Shown: positions 3,941-52,473 of the stretch, piece after piece
How the letters are laid out: each line of letters begins with the position of its first letter
How positions within the stretch are numbered: position 1 is the first letter of the stretch
DNA from: Lentilactobacillus laojiaonis
GTDB taxonomy: Bacteria > Bacillota > Bacilli > Lactobacillales > Lactobacillaceae
Direction of reading: 5' to 3'
NCBI RefSeq assembly: GCF_020616595.1
Contig: NZ_CP085278.1
Span: 868,001 to 932,000 of the forward strand
Length of the DNA: 64,000 nt
Position numbers and translations under genes: made by a program
Notes under the pieces: generated by a model
What the model was told of the DNA's origin: nothing
The model's input: only the letters and a program-made list of their open reading frames with translations
The model's database searches: none

Positions 3941-6790
3941 TTTTGCCTGTTCAGTTAATTTAGTATCACGATCTAGAATTGGTTTTAAATATTTACCAGT
4001 ATAACTACCCTTTACTTCTACAACTTTTTCTGGTGTACCGGTAGCAACTACTTGGCCACCGCCATTACCGCCTTCGGGTCCTAAATCAATTAGATGATCC
4101 GCATTTTTAATTACATCTAAATTATGCTCAATAATTAGGACAGAATTACCATTATCAACTAATGCTTGCAAAACATTCAATAATTTACGAATATCTTCTG
4201 AATGTAATCCAGTAGTTGGTTCATCTAAAATATATAAATTTTTACCAGTTGATTTCTTATGAAGTTCGGAAGCTAATTTCATTCGTTGAGCTTCTCCTCC
4301 AGAAAGAGTAGTGGCTGGTTGGCCAAGAGTTACATAGCCTAATCCTACATCTTGAATAGTTTGTAGCTTACGAGTGATCTTAGGAATGGCACTAAAGAAT
4401 TCCAAAGCTTCATCAACGGTCATCGCTAAGATATCTGCGATATTTTTCCCTTTATACTCAACTGCTAATGTTTCGGCATTATACCGTTTACCATGACAGA
4501 CTTCACATGGAACATATACATCGGGTAAAAAGTTCATTTCAATTTTTAAGATTCCATCGCCATGACAGGTTTCACAACGACCACCCTTGATATTAAAACT
4601 AAAACGACCTTTAGTAAAACCATGAAGTTTTGATTCATTAGTATTAGCAAATAAGTCCCTTATATCATCAAACACTCCAGTATACGTTGCTGGATTACTT
4701 CGTGGAGTTCTTCCAATCGGTGTTTGATCAATATTAACAATTTTTTCAAGGTTTTCTATTCCAGTTATTTTTTTAAATTTACCAGGTTTTGCAGAATTAC
4801 GATTAAGTTTATGAGCCACTTCTTTTTTCAAAATATCATTTACTAAAGTAGACTTACCTGATCCGGAAACCCCAGTTACTACCACAAATTCACCTAACGG
4901 AATAGTTACGTTAATATTTTTTAAATTATTCTCAGCTGCTCCAGTTATTTTTAATTGTTTACCATTACCTTTGCGACGTTCTAAAGGCACGGGAATAAAT
5001 CTTTTACCCGATAAATATTGTCCCGTGATGGATTGTTTAGTATTTTCAACTTCTTCTGGTGTTCCAGATGCCATTACATTTCCACCATTGGCTCCTGCAC
5101 CAGGTCCAATATCAATTAAATAATCAGCAGCACGCATAGTATCTTCATCATGTTCTACTACCACTAAGGTATTACCTAAGTCTCGCATGTGTTTTAAAGA
5201 CTCAATCAATCTATCATTATCTCGCTGGTGAAGTCCAATAGACGGCTCATCTAAAACGTATAAAACCCCGGTTAGATTGGATCCAATTTGCGTAGCCAAT
5301 CTAATTCGTTGAGCTTCTCCTCCAGATAAGGTCCTAGCAGAACGCGATAAGGTTAGATAATCCAAACCAACATTTTTTAAAAAAGTTAGACGATCAGAAA
5401 TTTCTTTTAAAATTGGCGCCGCAATAGTCGCGTTTTGTTCACTCAATTTAAGTTCCTTAAAGAAATTAAGTTCAGCTTGAATATCCATTGCCGAGACTTC
5501 TGCAATATTTAAATCTGCAATTTTAACTGAGCGAGCTTTATCATTCAAACGATATCCATGACAGGTACGACAAGTTAACTCGGTCATATAGGTACGCATT
5601 TGGTCTCTAGTAAAATCACTACTAGTATCATGATAACGACGATCAACATTGTTAACTACCCCTTCAAATGTCGTATCTACATCACGAACTCCGCCAAAAT
5701 CATTTTCATAATGGAAATGAAATTCCTGACCATTAGATCCATAAAGAATTAGATTTTTCTGTTTATCTGATAAGTCCTTAAATGGTGTGTCCATATCGAT
5801 TTTAAAAGCCTGGCATACTTGTGCCAACAAATTGGGATAATATTTAGAACTAATTGGATTCCATGGGGCAATAGCTCCTTGGTTTAAGGTTAAAGTATCA
5901 TCAGGAACAATTAAGTCTAAATCAATTTCTAATTTAACTCCCAATCCATCACATTCAGGACATGCTCCCGTTGGTGAGTTGAATGAGAATAAGCGCGGTT
6001 CTAAATCACCAACTGTAAATCCACAAATTGGACAAGCATAGTGTTCGGAAAACATCATAGGGTCTCTTTGTCCTAAAAAGTCTATAATGGCATATCCATC
6101 ACTTAGTCTAAGTGCTGATTCTAGTGATTCTGATAGACGGGTATTCATATCATTTTTTACAATCATTCGATCCACCACAATATTAATGGTGTGTAACTTA
6201 GTCTTACTTAATTCAATATCTTCTTCAATATCTCGAGTTTCTCCGTCAACTTGAACTCGCACAAAACCTTCTTTTTTGATTTTATCAAATACTTTTTTGT
6301 GTTGACCTTTTTTACTTCTAACAATTGGTGAAAGAATTTGAATTTTAGTGCGTTCAGGTAATTGCTCAATTTGACTGATCATTTGATCTACGGATTGGCT
6401 TTGGATGATTGAACCGTCATTAGGACAAATAGGAGTTCCCACTCTGGCCCATAAAAGTCTAAAATAATCGTTAATCTCGGTAACCGTTCCAACTGTAGAT
6501 CGTGGATTTTTAGAAGTAGTTTTTTGATCAATTGAAATTGCAGGACTTAAACCATCAATTGAATCAACCTGGGGCTTATCCATTTGTCCTAAAAATTGAC
6601 GAGCATACGAAGATAAACTTTCCACATATCTTCGTTGACCTTCAGCATACAATGTATCAAAAGCTAAAGAACTCTTACCTGATCCGGATAATCCAGTCAT
6701 AACAACTAATTTATTTTTAGGGATTGTAACATTAACATCTTTTAGGTTATGTTCTCTAGCCCCTCTAATAACGATATTGTCTATTGCCAC
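3938..6790 (-). CDS. uvrA: Excinuclease ABC subunit A
   Basis: The 950-residue damage-recognition ATPase of nucleotide excision repair. It has two ABC ATPase modules: Walker A GLSGSGKSS at 33-41 and GVSGSGKST near 640. Zinc fingers CPICG with CPECD and CETCHGDG with CEVCHGKR interrupt them, and there are two LSGGEAQR signatures. Full length and intact. It starts with GTG at 6790 after AGGAGG. It follows uvrB by 12 bases and shares its LexA-controlled promoter. Confidence 0.97.
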   Translation of the reverse strand: MAIDNIVIRGAREHNLKDVNVTIPKNKLVVMTGLSGSGKSSLAFDTLYAEGQRRYVESLSSYARQFLGQMDKPQVDSIDGLSPAISIDQKTTSKNPRSTVGTVTEINDYFRLLWARVGTPICPNDGSIIQSQSVDQMISQIEQLPERTKIQILSPIVRSKKGQHKKVFDKIKKEGFVRVQVDGETRDIEEDIELSKTKLHTINIVVDRMIVKNDMNTRLSESLESALRLSDGYAIIDFLGQRDPMMFSEHYACPICGFTVGDLEPRLFSFNSPTGACPECDGLGVKLEIDLDLIVPDDTLTLNQGAIAPWNPISSKYYPNLLAQVCQAFKIDMDTPFKDLSDKQKNLILYGSNGQEFHFHYENDFGGVRDVDTTFEGVVNNVDRRYHDTSSDFTRDQMRTYMTELTCRTCHGYRLNDKARSVKIADLNIAEVSAMDIQAELNFFKELKLSEQNATIAAPILKEISDRLTFLKNVGLDYLTLSRSARTLSGGEAQRIRLATQIGSNLTGVLYVLDEPSIGLHQRDNDRLIESLKHMRDLGNTLVVVEHDEDTMRAADYLIDIGPGAGANGGNVMASGTPEEVENTKQSITGQYLSGKRFIPVPLERRKGNGKQLKITGAAENNLKNINVTIPLGEFVVVTGVSGSGKSTLVNDILKKEVAHKLNRNSAKPGKFKKITGIENLEKIVNIDQTPIGRTPRSNPATYTGVFDDIRDLFANTNESKLHGFTKGRFSFNIKGGRCETCHGDGILKIEMNFLPDVYVPCEVCHGKRYNAETLAVEYKGKNIADILAMTVDEALEFFSAIPKITRKLQTIQDVGLGYVTLGQPATTLSGGEAQRMKLASELHKKSTGKNLYILDEPTTGLHSEDIRKLLNVLQALVDNGNSVLIIEHNLDVIKNADHLIDLGPEGGNGGGQVVATGTPEKVVEVKGSYTGKYLKPILDRDTKLTEQAK

Positions 6791-6802
6791 TCTTAGTGCC
6801 TC

Positions 6803-8809
6803 CTATTTTTTGATACTAGTTTTTAACTCTAAAATAGTATCTCTTAAATTTGCAGCCTGCTCGAAGTCAAGTTTTCTAGCGGCTTCTTCCATTTGTATAT
6901 TTAAATTGTCTAACATTTCTTTTTGATCTTTTTTGCTCATACTTAAGAAATCACTTTCGATGAAATCATCTTTTTCGCCAGTGTTTTCATTCGCTTTTGT
7001 AACTGAAATCAAATCGCGAATTTCTTTTTTAATAGTATGTGGAACAATGTTATGCTCCTCATTATATTTCATCTGAATGCTGCGTCTTCTATTCGTTTCA
7101 TCGATAGCATTTTTCATTGAATCGGTAATTTTATCTGCATACATAATAACCTTACCATTTTCATTTCGAGCAGCTCGACCAATTGTTTGAATTAAGGATC
7201 GTTCATTTCGTAAGAAACCTTCTTTATCAGCATCCAAAATTGCTACTAACGAAACTTCTGGTACATCAATACCTTCTCTTAATAAGTTAATTCCTACCAG
7301 CACATCAAACTTTCCTAAACGTAAATCTCTAATAATCTGAGTTCTTTCTAAAGTCTTAATATCTGAATGTAGATATTTAACTTTGATCCCTAGATCTTTA
7401 AGATAGTCAGTTAAGTCTTCTGCCATTTTTTTAGTTAACGTAGTAATGAAAGTTCGTTCATTATGCTCAATTCGCTGATTAATTTCACCAACTAAATCAT
7501 CCATCTGTCCCATAATTGGACGGACATCAATTGTTGGATCAAGTAAACCAGTTGGACGAATAATTTGTTGAGCAACTTTGTCAGTTTCCGCTAACTCATA
7601 TGGTCCCGGAGTAGCTGACATATAGATAACTTGGTTAACATGTTTTTCAAATTCATTTAGAGTTAATGGACGGTTATCTAAGGCACTAGGTAGTCTGAAA
7701 CCGTAGTCTACTAATTGTTGCTTTCGAGCCTGATCTCCATTATACATACCACGAATTTGTGGCATAGTTTGGTGAGATTCATCTACCACCAATAAGAAAT
7801 CTTTAGGAAAGAAATCTAGCAAGGTATAGGGTGGTTCTCCTGGTTTTCTTCGGTCCATGAACCTAGAATAATTTTCAATTCCACTGGTGTATCCCATTTC
7901 TCGCATCATTTCAATGTCATAAGTAGTTCGCTGTTTTAACCTTTGAGCTTCAAGTAATTTGCCTTCATCTTCAAACTTATTAACTTGTTGTTGCATCTCT
8001 TCTTCAATCTCAGGTAAAGCAACGTTCATAATCTCATCATTAGTTAAAAAATGAGTCGCTGGAAATATCGCTACATGTTCGCGGTCGCCTAAAACCTCTC
8101 CTGTTAAAGTATCAACTTCTCTAATACGGTCAATTTCATCCCCAAAGAACTCAATTCTTAGAGCATGATCATCAATTGATGCTGGAAAGACTTCTACTAT
8201 ATCCCCGTGTACTCTAAATCTACCTCGTTGAAAATCAATATCATTTCTTTCAAATTGAATATTAACTAATTCTCTTAGTAACTTATCTCGATCTAGTTCT
8301 TGACCAACTCGAAGTGAAACTACATGATCATGATATTCTTTGGGATCACCCAGTCCAAATATCGAAGAAACTGAAGCAACTACAATAACATCATTTCTTT
8401 CTAGTAAAGAACTAGTGGCTGAATGCCTTAATTTATCTATTTCGTCATTAATTGAGGAGTCCTTTTCAATATAAGTATCACTTGAAGGTACATAGGCTTC
8501 TGGTTGATAGTAATCATAATAACTAACAAAATATTCTACTGCATTATTAGGGAAAAAGTCTTTAAATTCACCATATAACTGTCCAGCTAAGGTTTTGTTA
8601 TGAGACAAAATTAAAGTTGGTTTATTAACCTGTTGAATTACGTTAGAAATTGTAAATGTTTTACCAGTTCCTGTTGCTCCTAATAAAATTTGTGACTTTT
8701 CATTTTCATTAATTCCCTTCACCAACTGTTTAATTGCTTCCGGTTGGTCTCCGGTAGGTGAGTACTTAGAAACCAAATCAAATTTATTATTATTTTGTCG
8801 TTCAATCAT
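6803..8809 (-). CDS. uvrB: Excinuclease ABC subunit B
   Basis: The 668-residue helicase-like subunit that receives damaged DNA from UvrA and recruits UvrC. Walker A GATGTGKT is at 44-51, the damage-probing beta-hairpin [12 protein letters not shown] at 97-108, and a UVR domain ([17 protein letters not shown]) at the C-terminus. I chose the ATG at 8809 because AAGGAGG lies just upstream. An open frame continues 17 codons further, but it crosses a hairpin in the 5' leader. First gene of uvrB-uvrA, with a LexA box in its promoter. Confidence 0.96.
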
Positions 8810-20170: not shown

Positions 20171-20851
20171 CTATCGGGCTAAAGTTAGTCCCCGAACATT
20201 TTTAAAACCATAATCCATCAAAAGTTCCGCAGCTAATCTAATGGTCGTCCCAGTGGTATAAACGTCGTCAACCAATACAATGTTTTGATTAAGTGAAATA
20301 TTACTAATTTCTTTTAAATCAATTAAAAATGGTTGTTCTAATTTCATCCGCTCTTTACGTGATTTTTTTGATTGGGAAATGGATTTATTAGCCTGCTTAG
20401 TTAATAAAATTTCTCGATAACTTAATTTTCCTAGTAAGCCGGTAACTTGGTTAAATCCACGAGTTAATAAAGTACTTTTATTAACTGGAATTGGAACTAC
20501 CATTTCCGGTTTAGAAATTGATGCTAATAGATCCTTTTGAAAAACTTTTCTTAATCTATAATCACCCAAAAACTTATATCGACGCATATACTCTCGCATT
20601 GCAAAATTATATTCAAATAAGGCAGTATTTTTAAAATCACTTAAATCATTCCAACGGTAGCAGTCCTGACATATAGAACTTGAGGGCCATCTTCGCCCAC
20701 AAATTTTACAAGTAGCGCAATCACTAAGTTTGACGAAAGTTTTCTGGCAAGCTATACAAATTTCGTCGATTTCAATGGAACTAAGTTTAAATAATTCTTT
20801 CACTTTAAACTCAATATCCATTGTTTTTTCACATAATAGGCATTTTTTCAT
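20171..20851 (-). CDS. comFC: ComFC-type phosphoribosyltransferase-fold competence protein
   Basis: A 226-residue protein with an N-terminal cysteine-rich zinc region (CLLC, CIAC, CATCKICG, CQDC) and a C-terminal phosphoribosyltransferase fold with a PRPP-type loop VLVDDVYTTGTT (about 192-203). ComFC is needed for DNA uptake in transformable Gram-positive bacteria. It looks intact. Its ATG overlaps the comFA stop by four bases, so it depends on translation through the broken comFA. Confidence 0.92.
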   Translation of the reverse strand: MKKCLLCEKTMDIEFKVKELFKLSSIEIDEICIACQKTFVKLSDCATCKICGRRWPSSSICQDCYRWNDLSDFKNTALFEYNFAMREYMRRYKFLGDYRLRKVFQKDLLASISKPEMVVPIPVNKSTLLTRGFNQVTGLLGKLSYREILLTKQANKSISQSKKSRKERMKLEQPFLIDLKEISNISLNQNIVLVDDVYTTGTTIRLAAELLMDYGFKNVRGLTLAR

Positions 20852-22173
20852 ATAGATTTAGCCTTACGATTCATTAGATTAATTTGGTATTGTGCCTGCC
20901 GAATGTTTTTATTTAAGTGTTCATAAATAAATAAAACTTCTCCAGTTGGTCTAGTTATACTTCTACCAACCCTCCCAGCAATTTGAACTAATGCCGAAGT
21001 TGAAAAAATTTCACTATCTGCATTGATAACCATAACATCAATTCCTGGAAAAGTTACTCCCCGTTCTAAGATAGTGGTAGTTATTAAGAATTTAAATTCA
21101 TGGTCTCGCATTTTCTATACCTTCGCTAACCGATTTTGATCATTAGCAAAAACCGTTTCAAATATGATTCGATCAAAATATTTCCCCAATACTCGTTTAA
21201 GGATTTCTAAATCATTAATGTGGGGCACAAACACTAAAAATGGAATTTTTGCCTCTACTTTGCTCCGCATAATTTTAATCAGTTTATTGGATATGCTACC
21301 TACATTAATATTTTCTCTCAACTTTTTTTGCCTTAGCAAACTAATTTCAGGCAATAAATGATTATGAAATCTTTTGGGTAAGTAACTAACCGAAATAGTA
21401 TGATGTTTAATCATTCTAAATAAATCTAAATCTGGGGTCGCCGTTAAATATAACTTAGTGCCGTTACGCTTTAGAGCATTTTTAACGGCAAAGTGTAACA
21501 TTGAATTACCAGCGTATGGAAAAACATCTACCTCATCAATAATTAATACATCAAAAGCTTGGTAAAACTTCATTAACTGATGTATAGTACAAATCGTCAA
21601 TTGACAATATTGGTAATTCATAGTAGATTTTCCATGAAGTAGACTAATATTGATCGACTCAAATGCTGCTTGTATTCGCGGAAATAGTTCCAAACATACA
21701 TCAACTCTAGGAGAAGCCAAAGCAATCCTTAATCCATTCTCTAAGGCCCAATTAATTGCGTTAAATAGCATCTCCGTTTTCCCAGCCCCGGTAACTGCCC
21801 ATAATAAATGGTCCTTACCGTCAACGAAGTTTTGTGTAATTTGTTTAGAACATTGAAGTTGCAATGGAGTTAGTTCTCCGTTCCAAGTTATCGGATTTAA
21901 GACCGCTTCGAATTGATTAGGCTCCTCTACATATACTAATTGATTTAAAGTATCAATTCTTCCCATTTGAATACATACTGGGCAATAATATTGATCGTTA
22001 GGTAACTTTGCTAAGCGTTTCTTAGTTTGAGTTCCACACCGTTTACAAATTATCCAGCTACGATTAATTTTAAGCCCATTAGTAAATTTTAATCGGTTAT
22101 CATTTTTTAGTTGATCACTTAAATTAGTTGCTATTAATCTACGACCATATAACTCACTAATTTCATTTATCAT
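20848..22173 (-). pseudogene. comFA: comFA, competence DNA helicase, interrupted by one amber codon
   Basis: ComFA is the cytoplasmic ATP-dependent helicase/translocase that pulls transforming single-stranded DNA inside. All parts are present in one frame of about 440 codons: zinc cysteines 43, 46, 64 and 67; Walker A AVTGAGKT (126-133); DEVD (213-216); TATP; ITTTILERGVTFP; and motif VI QIAGRVGRS. A single TAG (21117-21115) falls after codon 352 (RLAKV-stop-KMRDHE) and splits the second RecA domain. One base change from a sense codon such as GAG, AAG or CAG explains it. A downstream ATG (21111) has a possible AAGG ribosome binding site. Sequencing error is not excluded. Confidence 0.9.
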
Positions 22174-22220
22174 AAACTTTCACCTCTAAGTTATTAAATA
22201 CGTAACAAAGGAGTTTTATA

Positions 22221-50222: not shown

Positions 50223-50771
50223 TTAAACGATTGAATCAACTTGGTTAAATTCAAGTTCAGTACTAGTTTCTCTACCAAACATATCAATATTTACTTTAAG
50301 ACGCATCTTTTCATTATCAATTTCAGTTACTTTTCCGTTTAATCCAGAAAAGGCACCATCAATAATTTCAACAGTATCACCTTCATGAATGTCTAAGTTT
50401 TCATGACGCGCACTCATACCAATACGACGTAAGATTAAATCAACTTCATCAGGTAAAAGTGGAGTTGGTTTACTTCCTTGACCATGTGAACCAACGAATC
50501 CAGTTACTCCAGGAGTATTTCGAACAATGTACCAAGCTTGATCAGTCATGACCATTTCAACTAGTACATATCCTGGGAAAGTTTTATCCATTTTGACTTT
50601 ATCTTTACCATTTTTGATTTCGTGTTCTTCTTGCTCAGGAACTACTACTCGATAGATAAAATCTTCCATTCCCATAGATTGTTTACGAGTATCTAAATTC
50701 ATTTTAACTTTATTTTCGTATCCAGAATAGGTATGCAAAACGTACCATTTCTTTTCTGCTGATTCAACCAT
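50223..50771 (-). CDS. nusG: Transcription termination/antitermination factor NusG
   Basis: A 182-residue protein with the NGN domain (KKWYVLHTYSGYENKVKMNL) and a C-terminal KOW domain (HEGDTVEIIDGAFSGLNGKV). It modulates RNA polymerase pausing and couples it to the ribosome. ATG at 50771 after AAGGAG. It follows secE, as in nearly all bacteria. Confidence 0.96.
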   Translation of the reverse strand: MVESAEKKWYVLHTYSGYENKVKMNLDTRKQSMGMEDFIYRVVVPEQEEHEIKNGKDKVKMDKTFPGYVLVEMVMTDQAWYIVRNTPGVTGFVGSHGQGSKPTPLLPDEVDLILRRIGMSARHENLDIHEGDTVEIIDGAFSGLNGKVTEIDNEKMRLKVNIDMFGRETSTELEFNQVDSIV

Positions 50772-51266: not shown

Positions 51267-51808
51267 TCAATTTGTGTCATTTCTAAATTTAGTTTTACAT
51301 CTTTCGAAAGCATTCGTAAATGTTTGATGATTCAATTCAAAGCTTAAATCATAAATTAACGTTAATAAAACTTTTCTTTCTAAAGGTGAACACTTATTAT
51401 ATAACTTTTCTAAACTTTCACCAACTAAAATTGAATTTTCCGGATTAACTGCTTTAAAGTCAAGTAAAGTAGCATCATAAAAACTTTCATTAGCATTAAT
51501 CGAAGAAAGGACTTCTATTGGAAATCTTTTTTAGCGTTAGTTTTTCTAATTAAGTCAATTACTCGATGCTTTAAATTTTGTCGATAAAAGCTCCCAAAAC
51601 TAGTTCTGTATTTTGATTGATAATTTTGTACTGATTTATACATCACAATTCGAGCTTCCTGATCCCAATCATCATTATCCATCCCGACTACATAATAATC
51701 ATATTTGATTTTTTTAAGGACTGGGTAATATTTTTCAAATAATTTTTTAAAATCCTGATCACTACCTAATATAATTTCATTAAGCAGTTTTTGATCATCC
51801 TCTACCAA
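51267..51808 (-). pseudogene. sigH: sigH/comX-like sigma factor, split by a -1 frameshift
   Basis: A sigma-70-family factor at the conserved sigH position. It starts with TTG at 51808 after AGAGGTG. Region 2 is intact (GMDNDDWDQEARIVMYKSV, YRTSFGSFYRQNLKHRVIDL), but the frame stops after 97 residues. Region 4 continues in the -1 frame (FPIEVLSSINANESFYD, then LEKLYNKCSPLERKVLL and FTNAFERCKTKFRND) to a TGA at 51267. One extra A in the A6 run (T6 at 51527-51532 on the plus strand) would restore a 180-residue protein reading NAKKRFPIE. In lactobacilli SigH homologues activate competence genes. Mutation, slippage or sequencing error are all possible. Confidence 0.9.
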
Positions 51809-51904: not shown

Positions 51905-51932
51905 AATATAAAAATATAATTATTTTTATATT
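51905..51932 (-). terminator. All-A/T hairpin after rae1
   Basis: Perfect 28-base palindrome AATATAAAAATA / TATTTTTATATT with a TAAT loop, overlapping the rae1 stop. It contains no G or C, so it would be a weak terminator for the cysS-to-rae1 transcript. Confidence 0.5.
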
Positions 51933-52455
51933 ATTTAGACAATTCATCACGAAGCTTTTCTAATTTAAGTAATTGGGTAGCGTTAAATGGAGAATGTCTT
52001 AAAACTGAACTTTTATCAGTAAATTCGCGAGCCTTAACTTCCACTTCATTTTTGGCTCGTTTAATATCGTCTAATAATTCTCTAGCCGGAATTCTTAAAG
52101 CTCCTGCTGAGAAAACTGTCCACTGTTCTGCTTGGTCGCTTGTAGCTACGACCACTTGAACAAATCGACTCTGTTTTTGTCTGGCTAGAGCTTCAATATA
52201 ACTATCTGCCGTCTGATCTTTGCTAGTCCAAACAATCTCCATATCAAATTTTTTAAAACTTTTAGCATTACCTGGTACATACATAGCATCAAAAATTACC
52301 ATCATATTTACATCTCTAAATTTTTTATATTCTGATAATTGAGCTAGTAAAGTATCCCGTGCTTCATCTAATCGATTAGCCTGCTTTAATTTATTTAAAT
52401 GCGGCCAATTACCGATCATATTATAAGCATCTACAATCAACAATTCTTCTTTCAT
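51931..52455 (-). CDS. rae1: Rae1-type NYN-domain endoribonuclease (YacP)
   Basis: A 174-residue PIN/NYN-fold nuclease. LLIVDAYNMIGNWPHL near the N-terminus carries the conserved Asp and Asn, with further acidic residues in FDAMYVPG and TADSYIEAL. In B. subtilis Rae1 cuts mRNA in the ribosomal A site. I use the ATG at 52455 (MKEELLIVD); a TTG five codons upstream is also open. Follows rlmB, the conserved order. Confidence 0.9.
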   Translation of the reverse strand: MKEELLIVDAYNMIGNWPHLNKLKQANRLDEARDTLLAQLSEYKKFRDVNMMVIFDAMYVPGNAKSFKKFDMEIVWTSKDQTADSYIEALARQKQSRFVQVVVATSDQAEQWTVFSAGALRIPARELLDDIKRAKNEVEVKAREFTDKSSVLRHSPFNATQLLKLEKLRDELSK

Positions 52456-52473
52456 ATCACTTAATATCAACCA

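Follow-up and report, generated by a model that had tools for sequence, protein, structure and literature searches.

A SigH/ComX-type sigma factor gene split by a one-base frame break in Lentilactobacillus laojiaonis: very probably one of three recent lesions in a lineage losing natural competence

A sigma factor gene whose second half lies in another reading frame than its first may be lost, may be rescued by recoding, or may simply be miswritten in the assembly. We asked which of these applies to a locus of the competence sigma factor family in Lentilactobacillus laojiaonis. The window, i.e., the whole stretch of DNA analysed here, spans 64 kb and is largely colinear with three relatives. 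An earlier note on this DNA had described a competence-type sigma factor gene broken at a run of six adenines and had allowed for two readings, a recent lesion or a switch operated by slippage.

The split sigH gene and its neighbours

All features of the locus lie on the minus strand. The N-terminal half (51515..51808) starts with a TTG at 51808, carries region 2 and ends with a TAG at 51515 after 97 codons. Reading of the sequence places the frame break at an A6 run (51527..51532), where the zero-frame codons are, judged by eye, GCT AAA AAA GAT; a further A6 run and one A7 run lie inside the first half of the gene. From about 51530 the homology resumes with the C-terminal half (51267..51530), which takes the position of region 4 and remains open for 87 codons down to a TGA at 51269-51267. 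This half matches its relatives but does so in the -1 frame, so that region 4 does not share the frame of region 2. The join between the two frames sits at a conserved NA(Q/K)KR motif. Within the C-terminal half there is no ATG, GTG or TTG start except for one TTG that would yield 22 amino acids. The coordinates reported earlier for the TTG-started frame, the A6 run and the -1 frame down to 51267 were thus confirmed.

Upstream of sigH lies an open reading frame that we take to be a YacP/NYN-type gene (51931..52470, minus strand), matched in one frame and found in the same order in three relatives. The presumed nusG follows downstream (50223..50771, minus strand), as judged from its open reading frame and synteny, and two short genes read from the sequence, presumably rpmG and secE, are placed between sigH and nusG. 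By synteny, the gene occupies the interval between cysS and nusG that is the usual locus of the family, as described for lactobacilli in an earlier report (PMC3364868).

Each half could be recognised on its own. The N-terminal half matched the Pfam profile Sigma70_r2 with an E-value of 5.8e-6 (26.5 bits, cut-off 24) and shares 40-52% identity with eight relatives of the genus. Searched alone, it matched 18 of 18 genus relatives (E 7.9e-34 to 1.3e-21), as did the C-terminal half searched alone (E 5.9e-23 to 1.5e-11), with six outgroup rows removed beforehand and three more outgroup loci outside the set. The best NCBIfam matches were SigH models, which scored far under their own cut-offs, and a PDB search with the family alignment ranked the RNA polymerase sigma-H factor 3mzy first (E 2.3e-10). 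The continued homology of both halves is not due to chance. The SigH/ComX-type identity put forward earlier is therefore borne out by the Sigma70_r2 match, the relatives and the cysS/nusG locus. The sequence comparisons identify the minus-strand gene at 51808-51267 as an orthologue of sigH/comX in which a shift of one base separates two halves that are both still recognisable.

The earlier description of region 4 as intact in the -1 frame stood only in part. The C-terminal half is open and matches all 18 relatives, but gave no region-4 match in Pfam, where the top hit was an unrelated family under its cut-off (E 0.014). We use the label region 4 on the basis of position and relatives, because the profile matches neither this half nor its counterparts. 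In alignment A2, which comprises 15 SigH proteins from the genus that are intact or nearly so, no protein matched Pfam region 4, though all 15 matched region 2; the promoter-reading half of SigH is thus unusually diverged across the genus. The second half of the L. laojiaonis gene shows no further damage, as had been claimed, though its DNA-binding region shares this divergence beyond recognition by Pfam.

Among the 24 genus genomes compared, sigH forms a single open frame in 22, carries one internal TAA in G007 and is split in L. laojiaonis. The split layout is absent from the other 23, in which A runs of 2-7 bases surround the site of the break. A frame that is whole in 22 of 24 genomes agrees with the proposal of a recent lesion, and the case that would have spoken against it, a truncation of every homologue at about residue 97, does not occur in this set. 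Apart from sigH, the search gave only one weak match in each genus genome, to a sigma gene that is 374-450 codons long and presumably rpoD. As it stands, sigH of L. laojiaonis is a pseudogene of the SigH/ComX family. Our search, which covered part of the literature, returned no earlier report of a split sigH in Lentilactobacillus, no frameshift precedent in ComX of Lactobacillus and, on competence or natural transformation in Lentilactobacillus, nothing beyond a general review.

Companion lesions and a shared promoter box

SigH of Latilactobacillus sakei, a group IV SigH-like factor, resembles the present one in family, cysS/nusG locus, low identity between species and competence regulon, and its overproduction raises expression of comFA-FC, comEA-EC, comG genes, comC and dprA (PMC3364868). 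Because of this homology, an intact factor in L. laojiaonis would be expected to activate the com genes. In L. laojiaonis, by contrast, the reading frame of the gene is interrupted, and stops are present in two likely targets of the factor.

The first of these targets is comFA (20854..22173, minus strand), a pseudogene of 352 open codons that is interrupted by a premature in-frame TAG (21115-21117, minus strand) and continues with 87 conserved codons, including the motif QIAGRVGR. The stop corresponds to residue 355 of 442 of the reference, and the open reading frames of relatives reach 443 (G001), 419 (G018) and 438 amino acids (G010). We base the name comFA on synteny and on comFC being next in order, as curated models alone give PriA-like helicases. 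The adjacent comFC (ComF family; 20171..20851, minus strand) is unbroken and matched TIGR00201 with an E-value of 4.4e-27, which lies under that model's own cut-off. The second target is comEC (G000:C1:376014-378122, plus strand; positions 6014-8122 of locus L151), where an in-frame TAG at position 688 of the 729 reference residues cuts off the last ~41 residues; conservation carries on past this stop. Both stops fall within the last fifth of their genes, and the truncation of comEC may be tolerated.

A survey of 270 kb of the L. laojiaonis genome against stretches of three relatives covered 246 distinct genes with a homologue. At least 80% of the length was covered by one match in 233 of them, and eight genes were flagged. 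Three flags proved to lie in rRNA or tRNA genes, while two were open reading frame artefacts, i.e., a 65-codon frame (39.7 bits) for which the other relatives searched gave no counterpart, and an N-terminal extension present in G010 only. The lesions remaining after this check were those in sigH, comFA and comEC. As competence genes make up 12 of the 246 genes surveyed, the chance of all three lesions falling among them is about 1e-4; leaving out the preselected sigH, the chance for two of two is about 0.002.

Most of the other competence genes examined are still open, which argues against an already decayed machinery. Specifically, comGA, comGB, comGC, comGD, comGF, comEA, comFC, coiA and dprA are unbroken, comGE and comGG being both too short and too diverged to judge, and the comC candidate is an open frame of 222 codons that scored under the family cut-off. 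We also compared the divergence from G001 of ten competence genes with that of 106 others, scaled to each gene's own rate, where comGA and comGC are outside the ten and sigH is represented by its N-terminal half alone. No excess was found (mean z -0.11, p 0.42), which speaks against long-standing relaxed selection.

Small alternative sigma factors of the streptococcal ComX/SigX type act on a short box, TACGAATA, located just before the late com genes. The arrangement in L. laojiaonis would be of the same type, with the box CGTAWHTW in place of the streptococcal TACGAATA. All five competence operons examined (comGA, comEA-EC, comFA-FC, coiA and dprA) have this box 24-31 nt ahead of the start, as do two of the 233 other genes that carry an SD-like site. 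It was defined from four of the five operons, so that comFA alone is independent; there, the shared box CGTATTTA (22195..22202, minus strand), a putative SigH promoter element, was found with the shorter box. None of the competence operons of L. laojiaonis was matched by an initial promoter pattern whose gap was four bases long. A pattern with a three-base gap, derived from those same four competence promoters, gave ten matches including these four, and the reversed pattern gave four. In G001 and G018, similar boxes were seen by eye ahead of several of the same competence genes.

CGTAWHTW may represent the SigH promoter; it directly precedes the ribosome binding site, a location that would suit a -10 type element recognised by a SigX-like factor. 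The shared box indirectly supports a role of SigH in directing transcription of the late competence genes. Our search yielded nothing specific on a SigH promoter motif in lactobacilli among the matches listed. Since the ten competence genes are not unusually diverged and the box is kept in all five operons, the loss looks young; the intact com genes and the five boxes would also fit a sigma factor that still works.

Assembly error, slippage and a two-piece factor

Run-length errors are the commonest consensus error of long reads, and the runs of the relatives vary in length around the same site. On these grounds, the possibility has to be weighed that sigH is in truth whole and that the A run was miscalled in assembly or consensus building. 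The assembly is a single contig of 1,242,019 bases that is 88.8% complete as judged from marker genes. In the 61 window genes covered over at least 80% by one match, a set that includes comFA with its stop, we counted 159 homopolymer runs of at least six bases (121 A, 37 T and 1 G), none of which breaks a frame. The assembly is thus not rich in run-length errors, and the A6 run in sigH is nothing special, such runs being common in other genes. Moreover, the companion lesions are stop codons and not changes in run length, so that comFA and comEC would be cut regardless, and the lesions left after the survey are confined to competence genes. We therefore consider an assembly error unlikely. A search against plasmids gave matches to three Listeria records, all confined to ribosomal-protein genes; one of these records is unannotated there.

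Tandem AAA codons can slip, and the complete sigma factor might be produced, in low or switchable amounts, through recoding or through slippage of transcription on the A run. The conserved C-terminal half and a regulon preserved in good part, boxes included, would be in line with this possibility. The dnaX slippery phase reads A-AAA-AAG. The run in sigH is only six bases long and is read as GCT-AAA-AAA-GAT, unlike the dnaX phase, so that by eye no slippery heptamer stands in the right phase. No stimulatory RNA structure was detected downstream of the run, as 153 of 200 shuffled sequences folded at least as well (z +0.73; 101 nt, folded without pseudoknots). Conservation of the layout across the 24 genus genomes, as expected for a programmed -1 frameshift gene, was not observed either, and we found no programmed frameshifting in sigma factors in the literature searched. 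Together with the companion stop codons, phase, structure and lack of conservation led us to reject programmed recoding of sigH. Slippage in general is not supported, because slipping on an A run could not overcome the in-frame stops in comFA and comEC. It is needed to explain none of the observations and would not restore the two cut genes, and we regard it as very improbable. The phase or recoding switch suggested earlier is accordingly not supported, in view of the single frame in relatives, the missing structure, the short and common run and the stops in comFA and comEC.

A related scenario would make the A run a slow on/off switch, in which rare slippage or changes in run length provide a few cells with a whole sigma factor. 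A genome that is shrinking would then retain competence as a rare state, and the shortened forms of ComFA and ComEC would keep part of their function. We attach very little weight to this scenario. That the two regions act as separate proteins, in the manner of the two-piece sigma factor SigO-RsoA of Bacillus subtilis, would agree with the conserved sequence of both halves, but is almost certainly not the case given the lack of a usable start in the C-terminal half and the absence of the layout from all 23 other genus genomes.

Two further causes were considered and discarded. The N-terminal half of sigH, comFA and comEC all end in TAG; reassignment or suppression of this codon is not the answer, since TAG terminates 38 of 228 intact genes of the genome and thus acts as a regular stop. 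Loss of mismatch repair does not account for a contraction of the run, as mutS is open over 860 codons here.

Loss of competence in L. laojiaonis and its genus

Taken together, sigH of L. laojiaonis is very probably a recent pseudogene of the SigH/ComX family that belongs, with comFA and comEC, to a set of three fresh lesions marking an ongoing loss of natural competence in this lineage. Using its region 2 to bind RNA polymerase, an intact SigH would steer the enzyme to the CGTAWHTW box of its targets comGA, comEA-EC, comFA-FC, coiA and dprA. With the frame broken, the A6 run would be the point where the ribosome departs from the sigma frame, to stop after reading three more codons. Its product would consist of the region-2 fragment only, for which contact with RNA polymerase is possible and full promoter recognition is not expected, so that the late competence genes would stay off. 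ComFA, if made, would lack what we take to be its last helicase motifs. We infer that the region-2 fragment has no activity, and the cells probably cannot be transformed.

Lesions in these genes also occur elsewhere in the genus. We found stops in comFA of G013 and G016 (L231 or L271 and L243), in comEC of G003, G013 and G018 (L268, L231 or L271, and L254) and in sigH of G007 (L093), and within any one gene the stops differ in place between members. In G032, comFA was not found. At least one lesion in sigH, comFA or comEC is present in six of 23 genomes including L. laojiaonis, a rate for these three genes only and without a yardstick from other genes; among the six, G013 is only 86% complete. 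G033 (L276-L278) has comEC in three pieces, with mutS and other genes fragmented as well, and its assembly looks frameshift-rich; we left it out of the count because of this fragmentation of other genes.

Damaged com sets are known from other lactic acid bacteria. Oenococcus oeni com genes carry frameshifts (PMC6498615), and an intact com set is present in about 25% of Lactococcus lactis strains (PMC11244767); as here, the damage or incompleteness differs from lineage to lineage. In contrast to these cases, the sigma factor itself is broken in L. laojiaonis, the decay is at an early stage and most of the com genes examined are open. Early pseudogenisation of natural competence, matching the loss described in other lactic acid bacteria, is the best explanation of our data. 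Frequent loss of transformation has also been described within two other species, where inactivated competence genes, comM apart, were rarely the cause (PMC11472951).

The L. laojiaonis genome is the smallest of the 24 compared, the others ranging from 1.5 to 3.3 Mb, and perhaps belongs to a reduced, niche-bound lineage. The mechanism is an ordinary one, and the findings look like the recent loss of an ability, not like a novel form of gene control. The locus offers an early snapshot of competence loss in a 1.24 Mb genome, with the master switch and two machinery genes damaged while the boxes and most com genes examined are still clean. The differing competence lesions between members of the genus bear on how frequently transformation is lost in lactic acid bacteria.
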